Assembly (NCBI RefSeq): GCF_020630935.1
Contig: NZ_JAHDIG010000036.1
Location: forward strand, 1 to 35,838
Direction of reading: 5' to 3'
DNA from: Bernardetia sp.
GTDB taxonomy: Bacteria > Bacteroidota > Bacteroidia > Cytophagales > Bernardetiaceae
DNA: 35,838 nucleotides
In this document: positions 22,023 through 31,626 of the stretch, piece by piece
Numbering within the stretch: position 1 is the stretch's first letter
Layout: each line of letters begins with the position of its first letter
Notes under the pieces: generated by a model
Database searches by the model: none
What the model was told of the DNA's origin: nothing
What the model saw: the letters and a program-made list of their open reading frames with translations, nothing else
Translations under genes and position numbers: made by a program

Positions 22023-22784
22023 CTATTTAATTTCCTCTATCTCAAAATCAGTTCGTTGCCCTGCTTTTATTTTGAGTTTGTAATCTGCAACAGTTTTAAT
22101 AGTATCGGTCAAAAAATAATCTGTTAGGATTTGAAAATCTATTGTTGTATCCTTTTCTACATCAAAATAGATTTTGTCTGTAAGTTGGTTATTTTGATAA
22201 AACTGTGAGGAAAATGGATTTACGCCAAAGTTATAGAAATTGTAGTGAGCGACAATAGATGGATTATGTGGCAGAACTTTCAAATTGATAGGGTCAAAAA
22301 TTACCCCACCACCAGAAAAATAATGAAAGGCTACCAAATTATATTTACTGTGTGTTCTGTAAAGCAATAAGTTGTGTAACTTACTCAGATGCTTGCTATA
22401 ACCATTTTCGAAATTCAAAAATGAACCATCTTCTTCTCGTTTTAGAGGTGAATATTCGTAAAAATCCTTGACAATGTGATTCTCCAGTAATTTCCACTCA
22501 TAGACATCTGTATTGTACAGAGAATCAGAATAATCTAACTTTGTTTTTACAGAATAGAAAATCTCACTTTTTGGAGAATAATAACCAGAATTTTCTACAT
22601 CAAACTGTTCTCTTTCCAAAATAACGTGTTTTTTCAGTTTGATTTTTTCCACTAAAAAATGCTCACTTTTCTCTATCGCAGTTATGTCTTTAGCCTTTTG
22701 CTTTTCTTGAGTGTTCCAATAGAATATGCACAAAACGCCCACCAAAGTCCAAGCGAATAAAGAAAATATAGTTTTAGTTTTCAT
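22023..22784 (-). CDS. Locus A gene 3: membrane-anchored protein of unknown function
   Basis: The 253-residue protein has one N-terminal membrane helix (TIFSLFAWTLVGVLCIFYW, residues 5-23) and an otherwise soluble, probably periplasmic domain. I do not recognise the family. It opens MKTKTIFS exactly like the gene before it, and the DNA around both start codons is identical over 27 bases. The C-terminus (VADYKLKIKAGQ..FEIEEIK) aligns with the end of locus B gene 2 at 29774-30520 (YKVKAKKHLQPFDYEEIK). The start codon overlaps the previous stop by four bases (ATGA), so translation is coupled. There is no lipoprotein box and no recognised catalytic motif. Confidence 0.75.
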   Translation of the reverse strand: MKTKTIFSLFAWTLVGVLCIFYWNTQEKQKAKDITAIEKSEHFLVEKIKLKKHVILEREQFDVENSGYYSPKSEIFYSVKTKLDYSDSLYNTDVYEWKLLENHIVKDFYEYSPLKREEDGSFLNFENGYSKHLSKLHNLLLYRTHSKYNLVAFHYFSGGGVIFDPINLKVLPHNPSIVAHYNFYNFGVNPFSSQFYQNNQLTDKIYFDVEKDTTIDFQILTDYFLTDTIKTVADYKLKIKAGQRTDFEIEEIK

Positions 22785-23356
22785 CTTAAATAGTATTCAA
22801 TGGGTTCTGGATGGAAAATATCTGTTAGTCTGATTCCTATTTTATCGTTTTCTATTACTTCAACACCTAATGTACTATACCCTGTTGCCCAGTAGCTAAT
22901 ATTTTGAAACGTTTCATCATCTGCAAAATTCATTAAATTTTGGTATAAATAGAGCTTATTTATCTGTTTTAATGGACTATCTAGGCAATGATTAGAATCG
23001 TTTTGAGAAATGACTTTTTTATAGAATTTATTGTTTGTCAAAGGATATTCCTTCATGTCATCTAGTGAGATTACACCTTTTTTATATCTAAGTTCAGCCA
23101 GTTTGTGAGCATTTTTTAGGTTAAAAAATGTGTATCGCTCTCTTTCACTACCAATTATAGCGTATCCTGCGTGAAATAAATAGTTTAAATATCTATCTTG
23201 ATGAGTTAGTTGAATTGACTTTTTCAATACTTTGCTACTTTTCTCTATGGCAAGAATTTCATTTTCTTTGTTCGTATTTTGAGAAGCAAAATAAAAAATG
23301 CTTACCACGACAATCACAACCCAAATAGAAACAGAAAATATAGTTTTAGTTTTCAT
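22781..23356 (-). CDS. Locus A gene 2: membrane-anchored protein of unknown function
   Basis: The 191-residue protein has a single N-terminal membrane helix (about residues 5-24) followed by a soluble domain. It is a paralog of its downstream neighbour: both share MKTKTIFS, the helix and an AIEKS motif (EILAIEKSSKVL against DITAIEKSEHFL). It is also related to locus B gene 2: GVISLDDMKEY here matches APISIDNLKPF there, both followed by a helical stretch with LYLYQNLM against HNLYQRVQ. The gene overlaps the end of locus A gene 1 by 11 bases and the start of gene 3 by 4 bases, marking one operon. It is shorter than its relatives, so it may keep only the N-terminal domain. Confidence 0.75.
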   Translation of the reverse strand: MKTKTIFSVSIWVVIVVVSIFYFASQNTNKENEILAIEKSSKVLKKSIQLTHQDRYLNYLFHAGYAIIGSERERYTFFNLKNAHKLAELRYKKGVISLDDMKEYPLTNNKFYKKVISQNDSNHCLDSPLKQINKLYLYQNLMNFADDETFQNISYWATGYSTLGVEVIENDKIGIRLTDIFHPEPIEYYLR

Positions 23357-24305
23357 CTTTGTAATACTTGTTTAGGTAGTCAAAATCTTGTTTGATAGTC
23401 AAAATAGTGTCTCCTCCTTCAAGAAAAGTTGGAACTTTCACAGCAAATTTTTGAATGCCTTTTCTAAACTCTTTCGGAATGATGATAAATCCGTTCTCAT
23501 CAAACTTCGTTTCTATGTTTGCTGGGTCAATTAGACGAGTAGTTTCTTTGTCAAAAGGAATTACACTCATCGTACTGATATAATACGGCTTGTCTTTTCC
23601 TTTTTCATAATGCACATACGGCACAACTTTTATATCTTCTATTTTCAAATCAAGAGGATAAAGCAAATATTTCTGTGAAAGCATTTTAGAATCTTCATAA
23701 TACATTGTGGCAAGCTGCGCCTCAAAACGAGAATAATGGAAAGCTCTCAAATAATCGTCTGTATCAAAATAAAAATCTTCTAACTCTTCGTTTGTCATTC
23801 CATCTTCAAATACAAAGTTTTTATAACGTTTTGAAAGTACAGAATCTATGACTGATACTTTTTTGATATATTCTTCAAAGGCAGTAACGATATTTGAACT
23901 CGGTACTTTTGGAGGGAACTTTGGCATTTCTACTTCTTTTCCTTCGTATGAAACTGTTACTATTTCTATTAATTCAACTCTTGGCTTCTCAAAATATTGC
24001 TCATGAACATTCCGATAGATTTTATCTAATTCATCTCTTTGTTTTTTGAAACGAGTATGTATCTTTCTAGTAGTATCATTTTCATCTATGCCATTTGATT
24101 CAATATGCCTTTCTGCACTTCTCCACGCCTTTCCTGCAAGCTCTTGATATTCATCTCTTAGCTCTCTATTCTGATGATAGTTATAGCCTAAAATATCTTT
24201 TTCCGTTTCAGAATAACGACTATAAAAAAAGGTTTGGTAGCCAAAAAAGCCCAACAAAAGCAATAAAATAGCTACTGGCAAGTAAGGATTTTGTAGATGT
24301 TTCAT
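23346..24305 (-). CDS. Locus A gene 1: membrane-anchored periplasmic protein of unknown function, possibly GldM-like
   Basis: I chose the ATG at 24305 (319 residues) over a TTG two codons upstream. A short basic N-terminus is followed by a membrane helix (YLPVAILLLLLGFFGYQTFF), a long helical domain and a C-terminal beta-rich domain. It is clearly paralogous to locus B gene 1: KRYKNFVFEDGMTNEELEDF matches ERYTNFELEDGLDNSQLNQL, SRFEAQLATMYYEDSKML matches ARFQTQLTKMYADDIQLI, and NIETKFDENGFIIIP matches NLETQFDEKGFLIIP. The layout (one helix, then an alpha domain containing an 'RFQxQL' stretch, then a beta domain) recalls the N-terminal half of the gliding and type IX secretion protein GldM/PorM. 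That resemblance is weak and is an inference. It heads a three-gene operon. Confidence 0.75.
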   Translation of the reverse strand: MKHLQNPYLPVAILLLLLGFFGYQTFFYSRYSETEKDILGYNYHQNRELRDEYQELAGKAWRSAERHIESNGIDENDTTRKIHTRFKKQRDELDKIYRNVHEQYFEKPRVELIEIVTVSYEGKEVEMPKFPPKVPSSNIVTAFEEYIKKVSVIDSVLSKRYKNFVFEDGMTNEELEDFYFDTDDYLRAFHYSRFEAQLATMYYEDSKMLSQKYLLYPLDLKIEDIKVVPYVHYEKGKDKPYYISTMSVIPFDKETTRLIDPANIETKFDENGFIIIPKEFRKGIQKFAVKVPTFLEGGDTILTIKQDFDYLNKYYKDEN

Positions 24306-24371
24306 AACCAAAGAACGAAGAAAGTAAATAATTATGCGAAATATTTCGAATTCTAATTATATGAAGAGAGA

Positions 24372-24517
24372 TTCGTTCCTACGGAACTTAGCATTGGGAA
24401 AACTGTTAAATTACTACCAATGGTTTCATCTCTACAGAGACTGGAAAATAGTTCTGTAAGGACTTTCCATTGGTAGCCATAGAATTTTATAGATTATAAG
24501 CTCCGTAGGAGCGAACC
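24372..24517. repeat. Composite palindromic element of four small palindromes
   Basis: This 146-base inverted-repeat element lies between locus A and holB. The outer arms TTCGTTCCTACGGAACTTA (24372-24390) and the complement of 24499-24517 match at 17 of 19 bases. The inner arms CTACCAATGG and CCATTGGTAG (24414-24423, 24467-24476) match perfectly. Four small palindromes of one pattern are present: GTTCC-TAC-GGAAC, TCTC-TACA-GAGA, and on the other strand GTCC-TTACA-GAAC and GCTCC-TAC-GGAGC. Transcribed, it would fold into a long branched hairpin. Confidence 0.65.
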
Positions 24518-24562
24518 ATAAATTATTTCTCAGTAAAAAATAGTACAAATCAATAAATTTAT

Positions 24563-25669
24563 TTACCTCAAAAGTCTAGCAATCTGAACTGATAAATCCA
24601 TAAAAACGATTTTAGAGTTTGCATTTCGTTCCAAATGAAAATAGGCTTCGTCTATCTTTTCTACCAACGAAAAAATATTTCGCTCATCAATTACCTTAGC
24701 AAAATTTTCTACAAACTTTAGTGTTTCGGATTCTGTACGGATAAGCTGCTGTGTTCCAAAATTAGAAATTAAAGATTCTCTCAAAATAGTAAGAGCATAC
24801 TGCAAAAGCGTTTTTTGTCCTTCTTTTCCCAAGCTGTGAAACAAATCGGCTTGCTCTACAAAGCCAGCATAATCGTGCTTAAAACAAAGTCGCATCCAAT
24901 CTCTAAACCATTCTTGATTTTTATTTTGTGTATGCTTACTCAGTTTCATCGCCTCGTTCAAATTCCCATCTACCAAAGGCGCAATTTCGGCAGCTTCATT
25001 TTCTTTGATATTCTGACTTATCAAATACTCTTTCACTTCTGCATCCGAATAACGAGGAACTTGAATAAGTTGGCAACGAGAAAGAATAGTAGAAAGTATT
25101 TTATCTGTTTTTTCGCTTACTAATAAGAAAATGGTTTTCTTTGGAGGTTCTTCTAATCCTTTCAAAAGTGCATTGGCAGCACTTGCATTCATATATTCTG
25201 GCAACCACAAAATCAGAATTTTATAGCCTCCTTCATACGCTTTCAAGGATAAAATTTTTGAAATATAACGGCTTTCTGCCACCGAAATACTAAACTGTTT
25301 CCCTTCTGTATCCAAATATTCTGACCAATCTTGCAAAACTGGAAATTTGCTTTTTGGTAAAAATTCTCTCCAGCCTTTCATAAACTCTTCTCTCTCTTTA
25401 TAGGCTTTTGCTTTGGCTGTTGGAAAGACAAAATGCAAATCTGGATGAATTAGTTTTTTATAGCGCACACACGAACTACATCTTCCACAGGCATCATTTT
25501 CTTGTTTGTTCTCACAGCTCAAAAATGTTGCATACGCCCACGCTAACGAAAGTGCCGTACTTCCTTCATAGCCTAAAAAAAGCTGTGCATGTGCTACATG
25601 GTTATTATGAACAGCCGTAGTAAGTGTTTTTTTGAGAGATTCTAAACCAAGTATATCAGAGAAAAGCAT
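24563..25669 (-). CDS. holB: DNA polymerase III delta' subunit
   Basis: This is the clamp-loader subunit that, with delta and gamma/tau, opens the sliding clamp. The 368-residue protein shows AHAQLFLGYEGSTALSLAWAYA in place of a Walker A loop, as expected for a non-hydrolysing delta'. It has a four-Cys zinc knuckle at Cys52, Cys61, Cys64 and Cys67 (CGRCSSC), and HPDLHFVFP after it. The NALLKGLEEPPKKTIFLLVSEK block corresponds to the Walker B/sensor region. ILSRCQLIQVP contains the conserved SRC motif of clamp-loader proteins, which contacts a neighbour's ATP. The C-terminal domain is helical. It is a single gene; the composite repeat lies on its 3' side. Confidence 0.95.
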   Translation of the reverse strand: MLFSDILGLESLKKTLTTAVHNNHVAHAQLFLGYEGSTALSLAWAYATFLSCENKQENDACGRCSSCVRYKKLIHPDLHFVFPTAKAKAYKEREEFMKGWREFLPKSKFPVLQDWSEYLDTEGKQFSISVAESRYISKILSLKAYEGGYKILILWLPEYMNASAANALLKGLEEPPKKTIFLLVSEKTDKILSTILSRCQLIQVPRYSDAEVKEYLISQNIKENEAAEIAPLVDGNLNEAMKLSKHTQNKNQEWFRDWMRLCFKHDYAGFVEQADLFHSLGKEGQKTLLQYALTILRESLISNFGTQQLIRTESETLKFVENFAKVIDERNIFSLVEKIDEAYFHLERNANSKIVFMDLSVQIARLLR

Positions 25670-25836
25670 TGTATCTTAACGATTAATTATTAGTGATAAG
25701 TGATTAATGAATACGAAAATCATTTACATTAATCTTTATTTGAACCCCTCCAATCTTTCAAAAAAAACAGATAAAAGTTCAAAGCTATAAACAAAGATAA
25801 CAAAACATTTTCCTTTGCTTTTTGATTTTATAAGCT

Positions 25837-26277
25837 ATGAAATTAATTATAGAAACTCCGATTGCTCGTTCGGCAAGTGAAGTTTGGAAAGGCTTTACAG
25901 AAGAACTTTTTTTACAACTTAGTCCACCTTTTCCAAAGCTCAAACTCAATCGTTTTGATGGCTGCAAAGTAGGCGATGAAGTACATTTAGAATTAGATTT
26001 TGGAATTTATAGCTCTAAGTGGATTTCTTATATCGTAGAACAAGCCGAAACAGAAAGCGAAATTTATTTTGTAGATACAGCCAATGATTTGCCTTTTCCT
26101 CTCAAAACTTGGAAACACCACCACAGAATTAAAAAAATAGATGAGAATAATTGTATCATTATCGATGATATTGATTATTATACTTCTTCAAAAGCCTTAG
26201 ATGCTGTTATTTATCCAGGGATGTGGGCGCAATTTGCGTATAGAAGCCCAGTTTATAAAAAGTTTTTTGAAGAATAA
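25837..26277 (+). CDS. SRPBCC (START-like) ligand-binding protein
   Basis: The 146-residue protein has the SRPBCC pattern: an N-terminal strand (MKLIIETPIA) followed by the 'SASEVWKGF' helix, antiparallel strands (GDEVHLELDF, SKWISYIVEQAE, EIYFVDTAND), the segment PLKTWKHHHRIKKIDENNCIIIDDIDY, and a long C-terminal helix (DAVIYPGMWAQFAYRSPVYKKFFE). This fold binds hydrophobic ligands in a cavity. Members with this PFPLKTWKH..R segment are common hypothetical proteins in Bacteroidota with no defined substrate. There is no signal peptide. It is followed after 88 bases by the NRDE gene on the same strand, so the two may be co-transcribed. Confidence 0.7.
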   Translation: MKLIIETPIARSASEVWKGFTEELFLQLSPPFPKLKLNRFDGCKVGDEVHLELDFGIYSSKWISYIVEQAETESEIYFVDTANDLPFPLKTWKHHHRIKKIDENNCIIIDDIDYYTSSKALDAVIYPGMWAQFAYRSPVYKKFFEE

Positions 26278-26365
26278 AATGCGTAATTTTGGGTTTTACT
26301 CTATTGTTAAAGTTAAAGGCAAACCTTTAACCTACATCATACATTTGTAATTCGTAATTCATTTC

Positions 26366-27139
26366 ATGTGTACACTCACTTTTGTTCCTTTAGAAAAAGG
26401 AAATTTTCTTCTGACTTCTAGCCGAGACGAGCAAAAAACTCGTAAAAACTCTCAGCTTCCCACTTTCACAGAAATAAACAAGACAAAAATCCTTCGCCCT
26501 GTCGATGGCGACGCTGGAGGCTCTTGGATTGGAATAAATGACAAAGGTCGTACGCTTTGCCTTTTAAATGGAGCTTTTAAAAAGCACGTCAGAAACACGC
26601 CGTACAGAAAAAGTAGAGGAATTATTCTGATGGAACTTTTGGCAACAAAAAATCAAGAAGACATTGAAAATTATGACTTTAGCAAAATAGAATCTTTTAC
26701 ACTTGTTTGGATTGAAAAAACCAAAATGTCTGTTTCTCTGACTGAATACCGTTGGGTAGAAGAAGAAAACAAACTTTACAAAAAAAATATAGATACAAAG
26801 TTTGCCTATATCTGGTCATCTGCTACGCTTTACACTTCTGAAGTAGCCGAAAAACGAGAAGAATGGTTTGAAGAGTGGTTAGAATTCTATCTTAAAAAAG
26901 GACAGAAATTAGATACAATTTCACAAATCTTGTGGCATTTTCACGTCAAGGGAGGAGAAAAACAAAATGCTACGCCAAGAGAGCAAATTATGATGAGTGA
27001 CCCTTATGGTGGAACGGTTAGCCTGACACAAATCATCTCACATTTTGATAAAAACACTCCAAACAATAAACTCTCTATGAAACATTATAATCTCAATACA
27101 ATGAAGAGTAGTTTGGATGAGATGGAGGTAAAATCATAA
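26366..27139 (+). CDS. NRDE/TANGO2 family protein
   Basis: The 257-residue protein begins MCTLTFVP with a Cys at position 2, the candidate N-terminal nucleophile of the Ntn-hydrolase-like TANGO2 family. The name-giving NRDE tetrad is SRDE here (TSSRDEQKTR, residues 18-26), and the conserved DGDAGGSWIGINDKG and CLLNGAF follow. The C-terminal SDPYGGTVSLTQII segment fits the family's closing strands. TANGO2 relatives have been linked to acyl-CoA or haem handling in eukaryotes, but the bacterial role is unclear. The start is fixed by the Cys2 rule. It ends at a strong terminator shared with leucine dehydrogenase. Confidence 0.85.
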   Translation: MCTLTFVPLEKGNFLLTSSRDEQKTRKNSQLPTFTEINKTKILRPVDGDAGGSWIGINDKGRTLCLLNGAFKKHVRNTPYRKSRGIILMELLATKNQEDIENYDFSKIESFTLVWIEKTKMSVSLTEYRWVEEENKLYKKNIDTKFAYIWSSATLYTSEVAEKREEWFEEWLEFYLKKGQKLDTISQILWHFHVKGGEKQNATPREQIMMSDPYGGTVSLTQIISHFDKNTPNNKLSMKHYNLNTMKSSLDEMEVKS

Positions 27140-27141
27140 AC

Positions 27142-27180
27142 AAAAAAAGCGAATTGTATTTTCTACAATTCGCTTTTTTT
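27142..27180. terminator. Bidirectional intrinsic terminator
   Basis: A perfect 17-bp stem AAAAAAAGCGAATTGTA pairs with TACAATTCGCTTTTTTT around a 5-nt loop, three bases after the NRDE stop codon, with A and T runs on both sides. It serves the NRDE gene and, from the other strand, leucine dehydrogenase. Confidence 0.85.
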
Positions 27181-27188
27181 ATGAATTG

Positions 27189-27221
27189 AACCGTCAACGA
27201 GACGTGAAGTCGTCGTTGAGG
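27189..27221. repeat. CGTCGTT-type intergenic repeat, copy 1
   Basis: AACCGTCAACGAG is followed after 9 bases by CGTCGTTGAGG. TCAACGA and TCGTTGA form a 7-bp inverted pair. The same two half-units, in the other order, occur at 31630-31661, and a diverged minus-strand copy lies at 28412-28446. Confidence 0.5.
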
Positions 27222-27229
27222 ATATTTCC

Positions 27230-28324
27230 TTATCTCACAGTTTTGATATGAGCAATTTGGTCGATTCTTTCTTGTGCAATCTGAATCGCTACATTTTGAG
27301 CATTTTTATTTTCATCTTGCGACTGTGTGATTACTTCCAAACACATATCGTAAAGACGTTCTGTTTTCTGAACTACCCACTCACGAGGAAGAGAAGCATA
27401 TTCTGAATACACATTAATTACACCACCAGAATTAATCAAAAAGTCTGGTACATAAATAATTCCACGCTCAAGGCAAGCATTACCGTGGATTGTCTCGTCT
27501 TTGAGCTGATTGTTAGCACAACCTGCAATAATCTGACACTTCAAACGACTAAGTGTTTCGTCGTTTACTGTCGCACCAAGCGCACAAGGAGAATAAATAT
27601 CAACGTCCAAATCATAGATTTCTTCCAAGCCTACAATTTCTACGTTATATTTATTAGCAATATCTATCAAACGGTCTTCATATACGTCTGTAACATAGAT
27701 TTTTGCACCTTCTTTGGCTAAATGTTCAATGATGTATTCGCCGACGTGTCCTGCACCCTGTACAGAAACTTTTTTGCCTTCTAAACTATCACTTCCATAA
27801 GCCTTTTTTGCTGCTGCTTTCATTCCCATATACGTACCCAAGGCAGTAAATGGAGAAGGGTCGCCCGAACCACCACGATTTTCAGCCAAGCCTGTTACAT
27901 GTTTGGTTTCCATTGCAATATAGTCCATATCAATCGTCGACATTCCTACGTCTTCGGCAGTGATATATTTTCCATTGAGGCTTTCTACAAACTTACCAAA
28001 ACGACGCAAAAGAGCTTCATTTTTTTGAGTGCGTGCATCGCCAATAATTACAGCTTTTCCACCACCAAGATTAAGCCCAGCGATAGAGTTTTTATACGAC
28101 ATACCACGAGAAAGACGAAGGGCATCCGTTACTGCTTCCGTACTTGTGGCATAGTTCCACATTCTAGTTCCACCCAAGGCAGGTCCTAAAACGGTAGAGT
28201 GAATACCGATGATGGCACGAAGTCCAGAGTGTTTGTCTTGGCAAAAAACAAGATTTTCGTGTCCCATTTTTTGCATTTGTTCCATTACAGATTCTGTTGT
28301 CGGAGGAGTGAGTGTTGCTACCAT
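27230..28324 (-). CDS. Leucine dehydrogenase (Leu/Phe/Val dehydrogenase family)
   Basis: This 364-residue NAD-dependent amino acid dehydrogenase oxidatively deaminates branched-chain amino acids to keto acids, or aminates in reverse. GPALGGTRMW is the substrate-binding loop. The paired lysines of Bacillus LeuDH (Lys68 and Lys80) appear as Lys78 (MSYKNSIAGL) and Lys90 (NLGGGKAVI). The NAD-binding GAGHVG is at 190-195. ITAEDVGMSTIDMDYI matches the family. The length and lack of extra domains fit the octameric leucine dehydrogenase; valine or phenylalanine preference cannot be excluded. Bacteroidota use it to make branched precursors of iso-fatty acids. It is a single gene. Confidence 0.9.
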   Translation of the reverse strand: MVATLTPPTTESVMEQMQKMGHENLVFCQDKHSGLRAIIGIHSTVLGPALGGTRMWNYATSTEAVTDALRLSRGMSYKNSIAGLNLGGGKAVIIGDARTQKNEALLRRFGKFVESLNGKYITAEDVGMSTIDMDYIAMETKHVTGLAENRGGSGDPSPFTALGTYMGMKAAAKKAYGSDSLEGKKVSVQGAGHVGEYIIEHLAKEGAKIYVTDVYEDRLIDIANKYNVEIVGLEEIYDLDVDIYSPCALGATVNDETLSRLKCQIIAGCANNQLKDETIHGNACLERGIIYVPDFLINSGGVINVYSEYASLPREWVVQKTERLYDMCLEVITQSQDENKNAQNVAIQIAQERIDQIAHIKTVR

Positions 28325-28373
28325 AGTTTTTAAAGAGGAAAAGAGGTAATAAGTATGTTTGTGTTGTTAATTA

Positions 28374-28396
28374 GTTGTTGATGAAGACACCAACAA
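28374..28396. repeat. TTGTTGGTGT-type palindrome, copy 2
   Basis: The minus strand reads TTGTTGGTGTC then TTCATCAACAA, an imperfect stem of the same arm as the palindrome at 20784-20815 but with a shorter loop. It lacks a T-run, so it is not an obvious terminator. Confidence 0.4.
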
Positions 28397-28411
28397 GGGC
28401 AAGGTTAAGTT

Positions 28412-28446
28412 TAATCCTCGTTTATGGTTAAAAACCTAAACGACGC
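28412..28446 (-). repeat. CGTCGTT-type intergenic repeat, diverged copy
   Basis: On the minus strand CGTCGTTTAGG is followed by AACCATAAACGAGG. This has the order of the copy at 31630-31661 (CGTCGTTGAGG, then AACCGTCAACGAGG). The arm change TTGA to TTTA is matched by TCAA to TAAA on the other arm, so pairing is kept. Confidence 0.45.
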
Positions 28447-28899
28447 TTTTTATTTTTTTAAAAGAATATTTCGTTCTATTTAATGATTGTATCTACAACT
28501 TTACAAATAAAGAATTTTATTAATGTTGATTGGTTAAATTCTACTCTAAAACAAAATATAATTTTGAAGTCTATTTTTAGAAAGAATTTTATTCGTAGAA
28601 CTGATTTTTTAATTCTCTGTTCACAAAAATATAATAATTATTGAATAAATCGCTATCTAACTGATATTCAATTAGTAAGCTATTTAATTTTACTTAAAAA
28701 TTCGTTTCATAAAATATACATATCACAAAATAAAAATTTGATTTATGACTATTTTTCAATGTGAATAAATTGTTAAGTAATAAAAATACAGTAGGAAATT
28801 TTTTTTCATTTTTTCTAAAAAAAAATCGATTATTTTCGATATTTCAACCTTTGAAGTCCATTTTGCGTTAGTTTGTCTTTATCTACACACCTAAAATCT

Positions 28900-29769
28900 A
28901 TGAAGTATATTCGGACGATGCTCCATCCACTACGCCCCTTTTTGCCAGCTTCTTTGCTGCTTGCCACTTTGCTATGGTTTGGATATTCTCATTTTTTGAA
29001 AGAAAAATATACAGAAAATGAAAAAATGATTTTTGAGGAAGGGATTAGATTAACTAAAGAACTGTCTTATCAATACTATGAAGAGTTTACAGTTGATGAA
29101 GGAATTATTTATGAAGGAGATTATATAAGAGAATTTGCCATGCGAAAAGCATATTCAGAATTATACACAATAGATAGAAAGCTAGATAGTTTAAAACAAA
29201 CATTGATTGTAAATGAGCTTGATAATATAAAATTTTTAGAAAATACAGAAATTCCAATTACGTCTATTTTTGAAAAATATGTAACAGAGGCACAAGAAAT
29301 AGCTCCACTTCTTAAAGAAAGATATACGAATTTTGAATTAGAAGATGGCTTAGATAACTCACAACTCAACCAACTTTATTTTTCTAGGGATAGTTTGGAA
29401 AGTAAATATCATTTAGCTCGTTTTCAAACTCAACTGACAAAAATGTATGCTGATGATATTCAGTTGATAAGGCAAAAAACAATCACAAATAAAATAGAAG
29501 CTATTCTATCCAATTATGTAACGACTATTCACCTTTCAGAAAATAGAAACTATAACAGTCCAGATGGACGAAATAATGCCTTGTATCTTACTACATTATT
29601 TCCTTTTGATACTATAATTACAAAAATTATTGAACCTAGAAATTTAGAAACTCAATTCGACGAAAAAGGATTTTTGATTATTCCTCCTTCTCTAAGAAAA
29701 CAAAATACTAAGTTAGTAATCAAAATAATCTCAGAAACAGATTCAGTCTCTTTTACTTATAAAAGGTAA
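28900..29769 (+). CDS. Locus B gene 1: membrane-anchored periplasmic protein, paralog of locus A gene 1
   Basis: The ATG at 28900 (289 residues) is preferred over a TTG at 28873; a further ATG at 28918 would start MLHPLRPFLP and is also possible. A membrane helix (FLPASLLLATLLWFGYSHF) is followed by a helical region and a beta-rich C-terminus. Three blocks match locus A gene 1: ERYTNFELEDGLDNSQLNQL, LARFQTQLTKMYADDIQLI, and PRNLETQFDEKGFLIIPPS. The protein has no Cys pairs, no signal-peptidase site after the helix and no catalytic signature, so it should stay anchored with the bulk in the periplasm. The next gene starts four bases after its stop, so the pair is an operon like the gene 1-gene 2 pair of locus A. 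Confidence 0.75.
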   Translation: MKYIRTMLHPLRPFLPASLLLATLLWFGYSHFLKEKYTENEKMIFEEGIRLTKELSYQYYEEFTVDEGIIYEGDYIREFAMRKAYSELYTIDRKLDSLKQTLIVNELDNIKFLENTEIPITSIFEKYVTEAQEIAPLLKERYTNFELEDGLDNSQLNQLYFSRDSLESKYHLARFQTQLTKMYADDIQLIRQKTITNKIEAILSNYVTTIHLSENRNYNSPDGRNNALYLTTLFPFDTIITKIIEPRNLETQFDEKGFLIIPPSLRKQNTKLVIKIISETDSVSFTYKR

Positions 29770-29773
29770 GTTT

Positions 29774-30520
29774 ATGAAAAGAACAAAACAAAATATTGCA
29801 ATATCGTTGTGGATGCTTCTTTCTCTGTTTTGGGGATGCTACTATTCGTTTTACAGTCTGAGACACTCTGAGCAGAAGCAAGCAATAACCATTACACAAC
29901 AAAAAACTAAAGAACTTAGCCAAAAGCTGCACATACAAAAAGCAAAAAGAATAAACATCGACATAAAAAAGCACGGAAACAATCCAAGAGATAGACAGCT
30001 ATATAACCAAATTACGATGGCTTACTCAGACGTTAAAAAGCTCTATGCTAATGCCCCAATTAGTATTGACAATTTAAAACCGTTTCTTTCTGATAGTGTC
30101 GCTTTGTACTTACACTTAGAAACTAAACCTCTTGAAGATATAGATAATCAAATAATAGAAGATATTTATCAACACAACTTATATCAAAGAGTACAAGGTT
30201 TACTTTACAAAGAGTATTCACGACTTTATGGAATACACTGTGGTTTTAATAACGTTTTTTTGATGACTTCTAGTGACACAACTCTAGGATTTTATGGACT
30301 TGATGTATCTGATTACGTGGAAATTCCAAAGAGAGATATTACAATACTAAATCAAAAGTATAGAGAAGATATAGAAGGAGTACTATTTTTTAAAAACAAC
30401 ATTAATAAACCAGTAATTTTTCAAGTCGATACGCATACAGACGATGGAGTTATAAGCAAAAAATATAAAGTCAAGGCTAAAAAACATTTACAGCCTTTTG
30501 ACTACGAAGAAATAAAATAG
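29774..30520 (+). CDS. Locus B gene 2: membrane-anchored protein, paralog of locus A genes 2 and 3
   Basis: The 248-residue protein has an N-terminal membrane helix (ISLWMLLSLFWGCYYSFYSL, about residues 10-29), then a helical, Lys/Gln-rich stretch and a C-terminal beta-rich part. The SLxxKLH and APISIDNLKPF regions correspond to locus A gene 2 (KSIQLTH, GVISLDDMKEY), and the end YKVKAKKHLQPFDYEEIK to locus A gene 3. One such gene here therefore corresponds to two tandem ones in locus A. No known family is recognised. Its operon partner lies immediately upstream; the DUF457 hydrolase starts 47 bases downstream and might be co-transcribed. Confidence 0.75.
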   Translation: MKRTKQNIAISLWMLLSLFWGCYYSFYSLRHSEQKQAITITQQKTKELSQKLHIQKAKRINIDIKKHGNNPRDRQLYNQITMAYSDVKKLYANAPISIDNLKPFLSDSVALYLHLETKPLEDIDNQIIEDIYQHNLYQRVQGLLYKEYSRLYGIHCGFNNVFLMTSSDTTLGFYGLDVSDYVEIPKRDITILNQKYREDIEGVLFFKNNINKPVIFQVDTHTDDGVISKKYKVKAKKHLQPFDYEEIK

Positions 30521-30567
30521 CTTTCACTACTTTTTTCCAGTTTGGAAGACTGTCATACAAAAAAAAT

Positions 30568-31626
30568 ATGGATTCACTCACACAAATTGTATTAGGAGCA
30601 GCCGTTGGCGAGCTTGTCGCAGGAAAAAGAATTGGCAACCAAGCGATGCTTTGGGGCGCAGTCGCTGGAACAATTCCAGATTTAGATGTTTTGGCAAATC
30701 CTTTTTTGGATATCGTACAAGAGTTGCGTTGGCACAGAAGCCTTATGCACTCAGTTTTGTTTGCCATTTTGGTTGCGCCACTTTTAGGTTGGCTTTTCAA
30801 TCGTTTGGGAACAAAATATAATCTCAAATACCTGTCAGAAATGAGTTTTTGGCGTTGGACAAATCTATTTTTTTGGGGAATGCTCACCCACTCGTGGCTA
30901 GATATTTTTACGACGTGGGGAACAAAAATATTTTATCCTTTTTCTGATTATGGCTATGCGACCAAAACCGTTTTCGTAGTTGATTTTTTCTATACTGTTC
31001 CGTTCTTGATTTTGCTGCTTTGGGCTAGGTTTTTACCTGCTTTTAAAGACAAACTCTACAATAAAAAGCGAGCTTTTTTAGTGTGGTTTGGCGTAGGAAT
31101 GTCATCTTTTTATTTGCTTATGGGTGTAGTGAATCAGCAGCGAGTGAATATCGTTTTTGAAGAAAACTTAAAAGCTCAAAATATAGATTATCTGCGCTAT
31201 GACACCAAAACAACACCATTAAATATTTTACTTTGGAACAATATCGTAGAAACTGAAAACGGTTATTATAGTGGGTATTATTCTGTATTAGATAAAGATA
31301 AAACTATAAAATACCATTACTTTGACAAAAACTGGGAGCTTCTAGCCCCTATCAAAGACAACAAAAAAGTACAACAACTCTTGGAAGTTCCACAAGGCTA
31401 TTATACTGTCAAAACGTACCAAGAAGACGAAAATAAAATGTATCAAATCAATGACCTTCGTTTTGGGCAGTTAGACGGCTGGCAAAATGGAGATGGCGAT
31501 TTTGTTTTTACGTACTTGATTACAGAAGACAAAGATGGAAAGCTCTCTTTTGAGCAAAAGAGAAACAAATTTGATGAAGGTTTTCAGCTGATGATGCAGC
31601 TTTTAGGAAGAGCTTTGGGTAAATAG
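30568..31626 (+). CDS. Membrane-bound metal-dependent hydrolase (DUF457/YdjM-like)
   Basis: The 352-residue protein begins MDSLTQIVLGAAVGELVAGK, the usual opening of the YdjM/DUF457 family. Likely metal ligands are visible: PDLDVL (Asp38, Asp40), WHRSLMHS (His56, His61) and LTHSWLDIFTTWGT (His and Asp around residue 110). These sit between about five membrane helices in residues 25-205. The C-terminal 150 residues are soluble and unique to the Bacteroidota version. Members are thought to be phospholipase- or hydrolase-like inner-membrane proteins; the substrate is unknown. It converges on the TM2 gene across a CGTCGTT-type repeat. Confidence 0.85.
   Translation: MDSLTQIVLGAAVGELVAGKRIGNQAMLWGAVAGTIPDLDVLANPFLDIVQELRWHRSLMHSVLFAILVAPLLGWLFNRLGTKYNLKYLSEMSFWRWTNLFFWGMLTHSWLDIFTTWGTKIFYPFSDYGYATKTVFVVDFFYTVPFLILLLWARFLPAFKDKLYNKKRAFLVWFGVGMSSFYLLMGVVNQQRVNIVFEENLKAQNIDYLRYDTKTTPLNILLWNNIVETENGYYSGYYSVLDKDKTIKYHYFDKNWELLAPIKDNKKVQQLLEVPQGYYTVKTYQEDENKMYQINDLRFGQLDGWQNGDGDFVFTYLITEDKDGKLSFEQKRNKFDEGFQLMMQLLGRALGK

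Follow-up and report, generated by a model that had tools for sequence, protein, structure and literature searches.

The 35,838-nucleotide stretch of DNA analysed here (the window) is part of contig C36 in a 4.75-Mb assembly of Bernardetia sp. (GCF_020630935.1), and contains two loci, A and B, which, judging from sequence comparison, represent two members of an operon family that occurs in dispersed copies in the genus Bernardetia. Each locus combines a gene 1, whose product is, at the level of the predicted fold, a short GldM/PorM-like protein with a membrane helix and domain D1, with one or two copies of a gene 2. The reading that we favour, tentatively and with confidence somewhat short of an even chance, is that these operons encode genus-specific, dispersed pairs of short GldM-like proteins, which perhaps assemble as hetero-oligomers and whose sharing of GldL would be speculative. 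What would be new is a GldM-like module in a short form, encoded together with a second protein and amplified within one genus; a search of the open-access literature brought up no report of proteins of this kind.

At locus A, on the minus strand, gene 1 (23346-24305) encodes 319 residues with one N-terminal membrane helix, a helical domain resembling GldM D1 and a beta tail possibly corresponding to GldM D2; gene 2a (22781-23356, 191 residues) overlaps gene 1 by 11 bases, and gene 2b (22023-22784, 253 residues) overlaps gene 2a by 4 bases. At locus B, on the plus strand, gene 1 (28900-29769, 289 residues) is a homologue of the locus A gene 1 and is separated by a 4-base gap from gene 2 (29774-30520, 248 residues). 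The products of all three gene 2 copies have one N-terminal membrane helix; those of gene 2b and of locus B gene 2 end in EEIK, and that of gene 2a is missing the beta tail and is shorter than other gene 2 proteins. Coordinates and gene layout are as given in the initial annotation and proved correct on re-reading. The two gene 1 proteins share 31% identity over 301 columns (BLASTP, E value 1e-37), a similarity far above chance that marks them as homologous, and both pairs of matching blocks that the annotation had quoted lie inside this alignment. The likeness that it had seen among the smaller genes holds through their homologues, the pairwise resemblance being only weak (E 0.010 for gene 2a and 0.011 for gene 2b, each against locus B gene 2). 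Used as the sole query, locus B gene 2 found other gene 2 copies at 29-31% identity (E 1.7e-32 to 6.4e-18). In other genomes it also picked up the A-type genes, though weakly (E 5.8e-6 to 2e-3), and it did not reach the window's own A-type genes 2a and 2b; the small genes of A and B are linked via these relatives and not by pairwise similarity. Over the first 50 residues, genes 2a and 2b are 48% identical; further on they show no clear similarity, and their first 25 bases are identical (window 22761-22785 and 23333-23357, minus strand), a pattern as would be expected after tandem duplication and subsequent conversion of the start.

A gene 1 search of the same assembly gave six copies: besides those of loci A and B, contigs C28, C64, C21 and C1 hold one apiece. 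Gene 2 follows each of them, in two copies at locus A and at the C28 locus; at the C64 locus it runs off the end of the contig, and its apparent remainder begins at the end of contig C110. In Bernardetia sp. Wsw4-3y2, an operon with tandem gene 2 copies (L148, 5001-7378), whose genes are annotated 'hypothetical protein', lies on a replicon of 602 kb that its record gives as a plasmid and types as non-mobilizable, where it follows fructose-bisphosphatase, as does the C64 copy (the C64 neighbour having been named by eye). One named relative of gene 1, from Bernardetia sp. MAG-102 (L013), is 66% identical. We sampled 291 genomes of the order, including seven of Bernardetia, and 395 genomes of the phylum. 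The gene 1 profile matched in five of the 291 order genomes, all of them Bernardetia (five of the seven of the genus), and in none of the 284 sampled order genomes outside the genus. At an E value of 0.01, five of the 395 phylum genomes gave a match, these being the window's own and four weak ones (E 1.3e-4 to 0.009) that were set aside, three as coiled-coil or unrelated proteins by eye and the fourth for crossing stop codons. The gene 2 profile matched in eight of the 291 order genomes, six of the genus and two others; both outside matches were rejected, one being a short GldM-like protein, P0007, which also matches two canonical GldM (E 2.4e-5 and 5.7e-5), and the other lying in a frame resembling an efflux protein. 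None of the phage records matched gene 1.

The two genes are inherited jointly. Within the genus, the gene 1 profile search returned 21 rows, which represent 19 loci, two broken genes (at L034 and L041) giving two rows each; gene 2 sequence follows gene 1 at all 19, although it is interrupted at L036 by a transposase-like frame (named by eye). The survey of co-occurrence that the initial annotation had proposed found no gene 1 locus of the genus without gene 2 sequence. Among 16 loci, each with one full-length partner, gene 1 distances correlated with gene 2 distances (r 0.805), a value reached in none of 5000 permutations; this correlation is not proof of physical contact, and together with the 19 loci it bears out the claim of the annotation that gene 1 and gene 2 act as a unit. 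Gene 2 without an intact gene 1 occurs at three further places, all of them decayed: at L054 gene 2 is truncated at its start, with a transposase-like frame upstream (by eye); at L085 a frameshifted gene 2 stands beside 39 remaining residues of gene 1; and at L056 a gene 2 fragment of 49 residues is left. The alignment of gene 1 (A1) comprised the 17 intact copies, the broken ones at L034 and L041 being left out.

Searches of Pfam and NCBIfam with the five window proteins gave no model at its curated cut-off, the best match below it being DUF3810 for locus B gene 2 (E 0.0039; 17 bits, with the cut-off at 28), and PDB sequences gave no convincing match with the gene 1 query or with both profiles. 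The AlphaFold2 model of locus A gene 1 consists of a membrane helix, a helical bundle containing a beta hairpin and a low-confidence beta tail, with predicted local distance difference test (pLDDT) values in ten-residue blocks of 56-94 in D1 and 36-49 at residues 211-250. When this model was compared with the PDB by Foldseek, ranks 1-5 were all GldM/PorM, which forms the shaft of the motor that powers type 9 secretion and gliding, the best being 6ey4 (E 7.9e-4). VIA-align likewise placed GldM/PorM at ranks 1-8 (Z 14.3-11.2, 165-198 residues, within model residues 4-217), with 7sax_A at the top (Z 14.3, 192 residues, 5.1 Å) and 6ey4 at Z 11.2 (170 residues, 3.8 Å). Rank 9 was a dehydrogenase (Z 6.5). 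According to the warning issued with VIA, values near Z 14 are often reached by chance with helical models, and only the distance to the following row is meaningful; we therefore place weight on the gap of 4.7 Z units and on the eight rows being one family. The matched region is the membrane helix plus domain D1, and the N-terminal hydrophobic segment is kept in the aligned copies. The initial annotation, which recognised no family and took a strong hit to a described one as a sign against a novel system, was right with regard to curated families, but the gene 1 model specifically matches GldM/PorM, so that half of such a hit was found, gene 1 being a fold-level relative of that family and not a member. 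On the whole, its interpretation is supported in part.

Sequence-profile tests against GldM domains were run with the membrane helices cut off, because gene 2 had matched a pilin-like family with 87% probability over its membrane helix; matches over that helix were rejected as evidence of homology. Gene 1 scored 24.6 and aligned in order when compared with a profile combining GldM with short GldM-like proteins, the best of 60 shuffles reaching 18.3. The D1 part of gene 1 alone scored 19.5, with one of 60 shuffles, an outlier, being higher; its tail, which has low confidence in the model, scored 19.7 against D2, again with one of 60 shuffles higher. The helices of gene 2 scored 28.4 against D1, in an alignment of 50 columns located after the membrane helix, with no shuffle above 12.2; four wrong-domain pairings were at noise. 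A few shuffled profiles scored about 130, which is absurd, and were counted as decoys beating the observation. Compared with each other without the membrane helix, gene 1 and gene 2 scored 17.0 (decoy 15.6) in one direction and 15.4 (decoy 16.8) in the other, and with scores so near the decoy ceiling a common origin of the two genes is not established. The helical part of gene 2 is possibly D1-like, and its tail matches nothing.

Several results weigh against GldM-like pairs. The gene 1 model was built from three sequences (gene 1 of locus A and two relatives) and has a mean pLDDT of 63, the other four models were worse, and the Foldseek template modelling (TM) scores of the GldM rows were low (0.31-0.38 by query). 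The gene 2 model is poor (pLDDT 47), and no GldM appeared in its Foldseek or VIA lists, which at that pLDDT is uninformative either way. No GldM model of Pfam (GldM_1st, PF12081) matched any of 17 gene 1 or 23 gene 2 members at E values up to 0.5, and NCBIfam gave no GldM match for gene 1 members. Among the profile tests, two were at noise, each with four of 60 shuffles as high: the gene 2 tail against D2 (11.6) and gene 1 compared solely with the short GldM-like proteins (16.7). Further, helices 3-4 of gene 1 fell below the shuffles in an earlier test (13.7, best shuffle 16.4), and hhalign probabilities against GldM were 0.3-36% for the right pairings (3% for gene 1, 15-36% for gene 2). The motif (T/S)PRQ, present before the membrane helix in 21 of 23 long GldM_1st frames, is found in none of 18 gene 1 N-termini; in GldM, the arginine of the PRQ motif contacts GldL. 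Moreover, intact gene 1 is absent from two of the seven genomes of the genus. Given such modest sequence support, we base the GldM-likeness of gene 1 mostly on its fold and regard that of gene 2 as no more than possible.

In the structural literature, GldM is described as comprising a helical domain D1 (residues 32-232) and beta domains D2 (233-320) and D3, with the D1 dimers packed via helix 1 and the D2 strands swapped, and domain D4 of PorM alone is enough for PorN binding (PMC5790014). GldM has been described as the dimeric shaft of one motor encoded by one cluster (PMC5790014, PMC9389320); Glu49 of GldL is reported to be required for motor function, and the GldM helix to interact with helix 2 of GldL (PMC8986121). 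Like GldM and PorM, the gene 1 protein has one N-terminal membrane helix and, at fold level, a D1-like domain, and the hairpin of its tail perhaps weakly resembles the end of D2. Unlike them, it has only 278-322 residues (17 proteins, two of them counted from the likely start), compared with 525-555 in 20 GldM, leaving no room for D3 and D4; these 20 were retained by length and motif from the 23 long frames, all of which entered the motif counts. The gene 1/gene 2 loci further differ in co-encoding two different proteins each and in holding, where read, no gldL, which is the neighbour of gldM in the gldKLMN cluster. The canonical GldM of this genome, of 534 residues, adjoins gldL and lies away from the gene 1 loci. 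One gldL over the cut-off was found in six of the seven genomes of the genus, G001 having in addition a second, short match below the cut-off, and the search gave none in G006, which is 84% complete. With no D3-D4, no PRQ, no gldL neighbour and no curated match, gene 1 is not a GldM.

Other short GldM-like proteins occur in the order outside the gldLM cluster, at L090 (3443-4393; P0006), at L140, L141, L143 and L144, and at L101 (P0007). Those of the P0006 family, the 357-residue family of L140 and P0007 are like gene 1 in having a membrane helix, a similar length and no D3-D4, but they differ in an evident D2 signature (W, then DTT, then Y near the end), which is absent from gene 1 and gene 2; inspection by eye of the loci read showed no gene 1/gene 2 pair beside them. 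The P0006 family matched GldM with 95% probability, above its decoys. GldM_1st matches over the cut-off, with a lipoprotein-like start by eye, were also seen at L095 (701-1390), L124 and L128-L131; the type found at L095 matches in all seven genomes of the genus, its sequence having been read in six. A 426-residue frame of another family of the order (L127, 676-1956) seemingly joins GldL-like HWP membrane segments to a region matching GldM_1st, and a 642-residue GldM_1st protein (L121, 226-2154) begins like a lipoprotein instead of in the usual way, its genome also encoding a GldM of normal appearance (L126).

We propose that the gene 1 protein would have one inner-membrane helix and a helical D1, followed by a beta tail that is perhaps the counterpart of D2. 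As GldM protomers pack via helix 1 of D1 and swap D2 strands, we infer by analogy that the co-encoded gene 1 and gene 2 proteins may assemble into an inner-membrane hetero-oligomer that faces the periplasm. In a 5:2 rotary motor, a dimer serves as the axle within a pentameric, ion-driven membrane ring. If the pairs bind a GldL ring at all, they would, speculatively, share the canonical one, because only one GldL was found per genome; equally speculatively, they might be accessory or idling shafts unable to reach the outer-membrane ring, so tuning or braking the gliding/secretion motor. Were this true, a shaft module would have been duplicated, split into two partners and reused beside a single GldL, and the genus would offer natural short shafts for probing the role of D1 without D3-D4 and the acceptance of other axles by GldL. 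A stronger version, which we consider improbable, is that the pairs are interchangeable heterodimeric short shafts for a single GldL ring, letting one cell build a mosaic of type 9 motors in which full-length GldM motors would drive secretion and gliding, and short, locus-specific ones would idle, brake or do other periplasmic work.

The same features could have other explanations. It is quite possible that the fold derives from GldM and that GldL is not involved, the proteins serving in the periplasm as static scaffolds or adaptors with an inner-membrane anchor, as would fit a gene 1 without D3-D4 and without PRQ at the start of the GldM helix, the absence of gldL beside the loci read or, except for the canonical one, elsewhere over the cut-off, and the presence in the genus of other short GldM-like proteins, one of them lipoprotein-like by eye. 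However, the aligned copies retain the N-terminal membrane segment, which, jointly with D1, aligns to GldLM structures, and a scaffold has no known partner here. That the proteins are instead unrelated orphan helical-bundle membrane proteins, with the GldM match arising from chance or from AlphaFold2's memory of known folds, seems rather unlikely, since all of the best eight structural rows are GldM/PorM, separated by the gap of 4.7 Z units from the next, and domains paired correctly score above shuffles, in their order along the chain, whereas wrongly paired ones do not; such an origin would nevertheless agree with the weak ties of gene 1 to GldM in sequence profiles, with a gene 1 model built on three sequences and with the lack of a fold match for gene 2. 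We give very little credence to a conflict system (toxin and immunity, or anti-phage defence) anchored in the membrane by happenstance. Fast divergence, several dispersed copies and frequent decay would be in keeping with it, as would a weak match that gene 2a gave in PADLOC, to a type I specificity subunit (E 8e-4, 16.8 bits), but that match is short and the other four of the five proteins have none, gene 1 resembles a motor shaft and matches no phage record, and the neighbours are mostly conserved housekeeping-like genes (by eye).

As regards the evolution of the short GldM-like pairs, the ratio of nonsynonymous to synonymous substitution rates (dN/dS, NG86) was 0.11-0.32 for locus A gene 1 (10 orthologue pairs), 0.21-0.25 for gene 2a (six pairs) and 0.03-0.08 for the adjoining HolB-like gene (10 pairs), with synonymous sites near saturation in several pairs; ratios are claimed for locus A gene 1 and gene 2a, and none for gene 2b against G000 or for other loci. 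In the same genome pairs, dN of gene 1 was about 2 to 5 times that of the HolB-like neighbour. On these estimates, purifying selection acts on gene 1 and gene 2 wherever it was tested; both genes evolve fast, and in some genomes they have been lost through decay.

Locus A adjoins the HolB-like gene in all four other genomes with an A locus, and locus B adjoins a leucine-dehydrogenase-like gene in three other genomes, both neighbours having been named by eye and not by family search. The initial annotation had treated the inversion of A and B around a four-gene block as a feature of the system; the two sites are, however, 1.7, 2.1 and 2.0 Mb apart in G001, G002 and G003, respectively, and the mirrored arrangement is, by this comparison of sites, a local accident of the present genome. 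At the leucine-dehydrogenase-like site (window 28300-30600; L040, L041 and L054), different genomes carry gene pairs of differing clades. With some uncertainty owing to long branches, this suggests replacement at one site: gene 2 there belongs to the C21 clade in G000 and G001, and is grouped with the C1 clade in G002 and G003.

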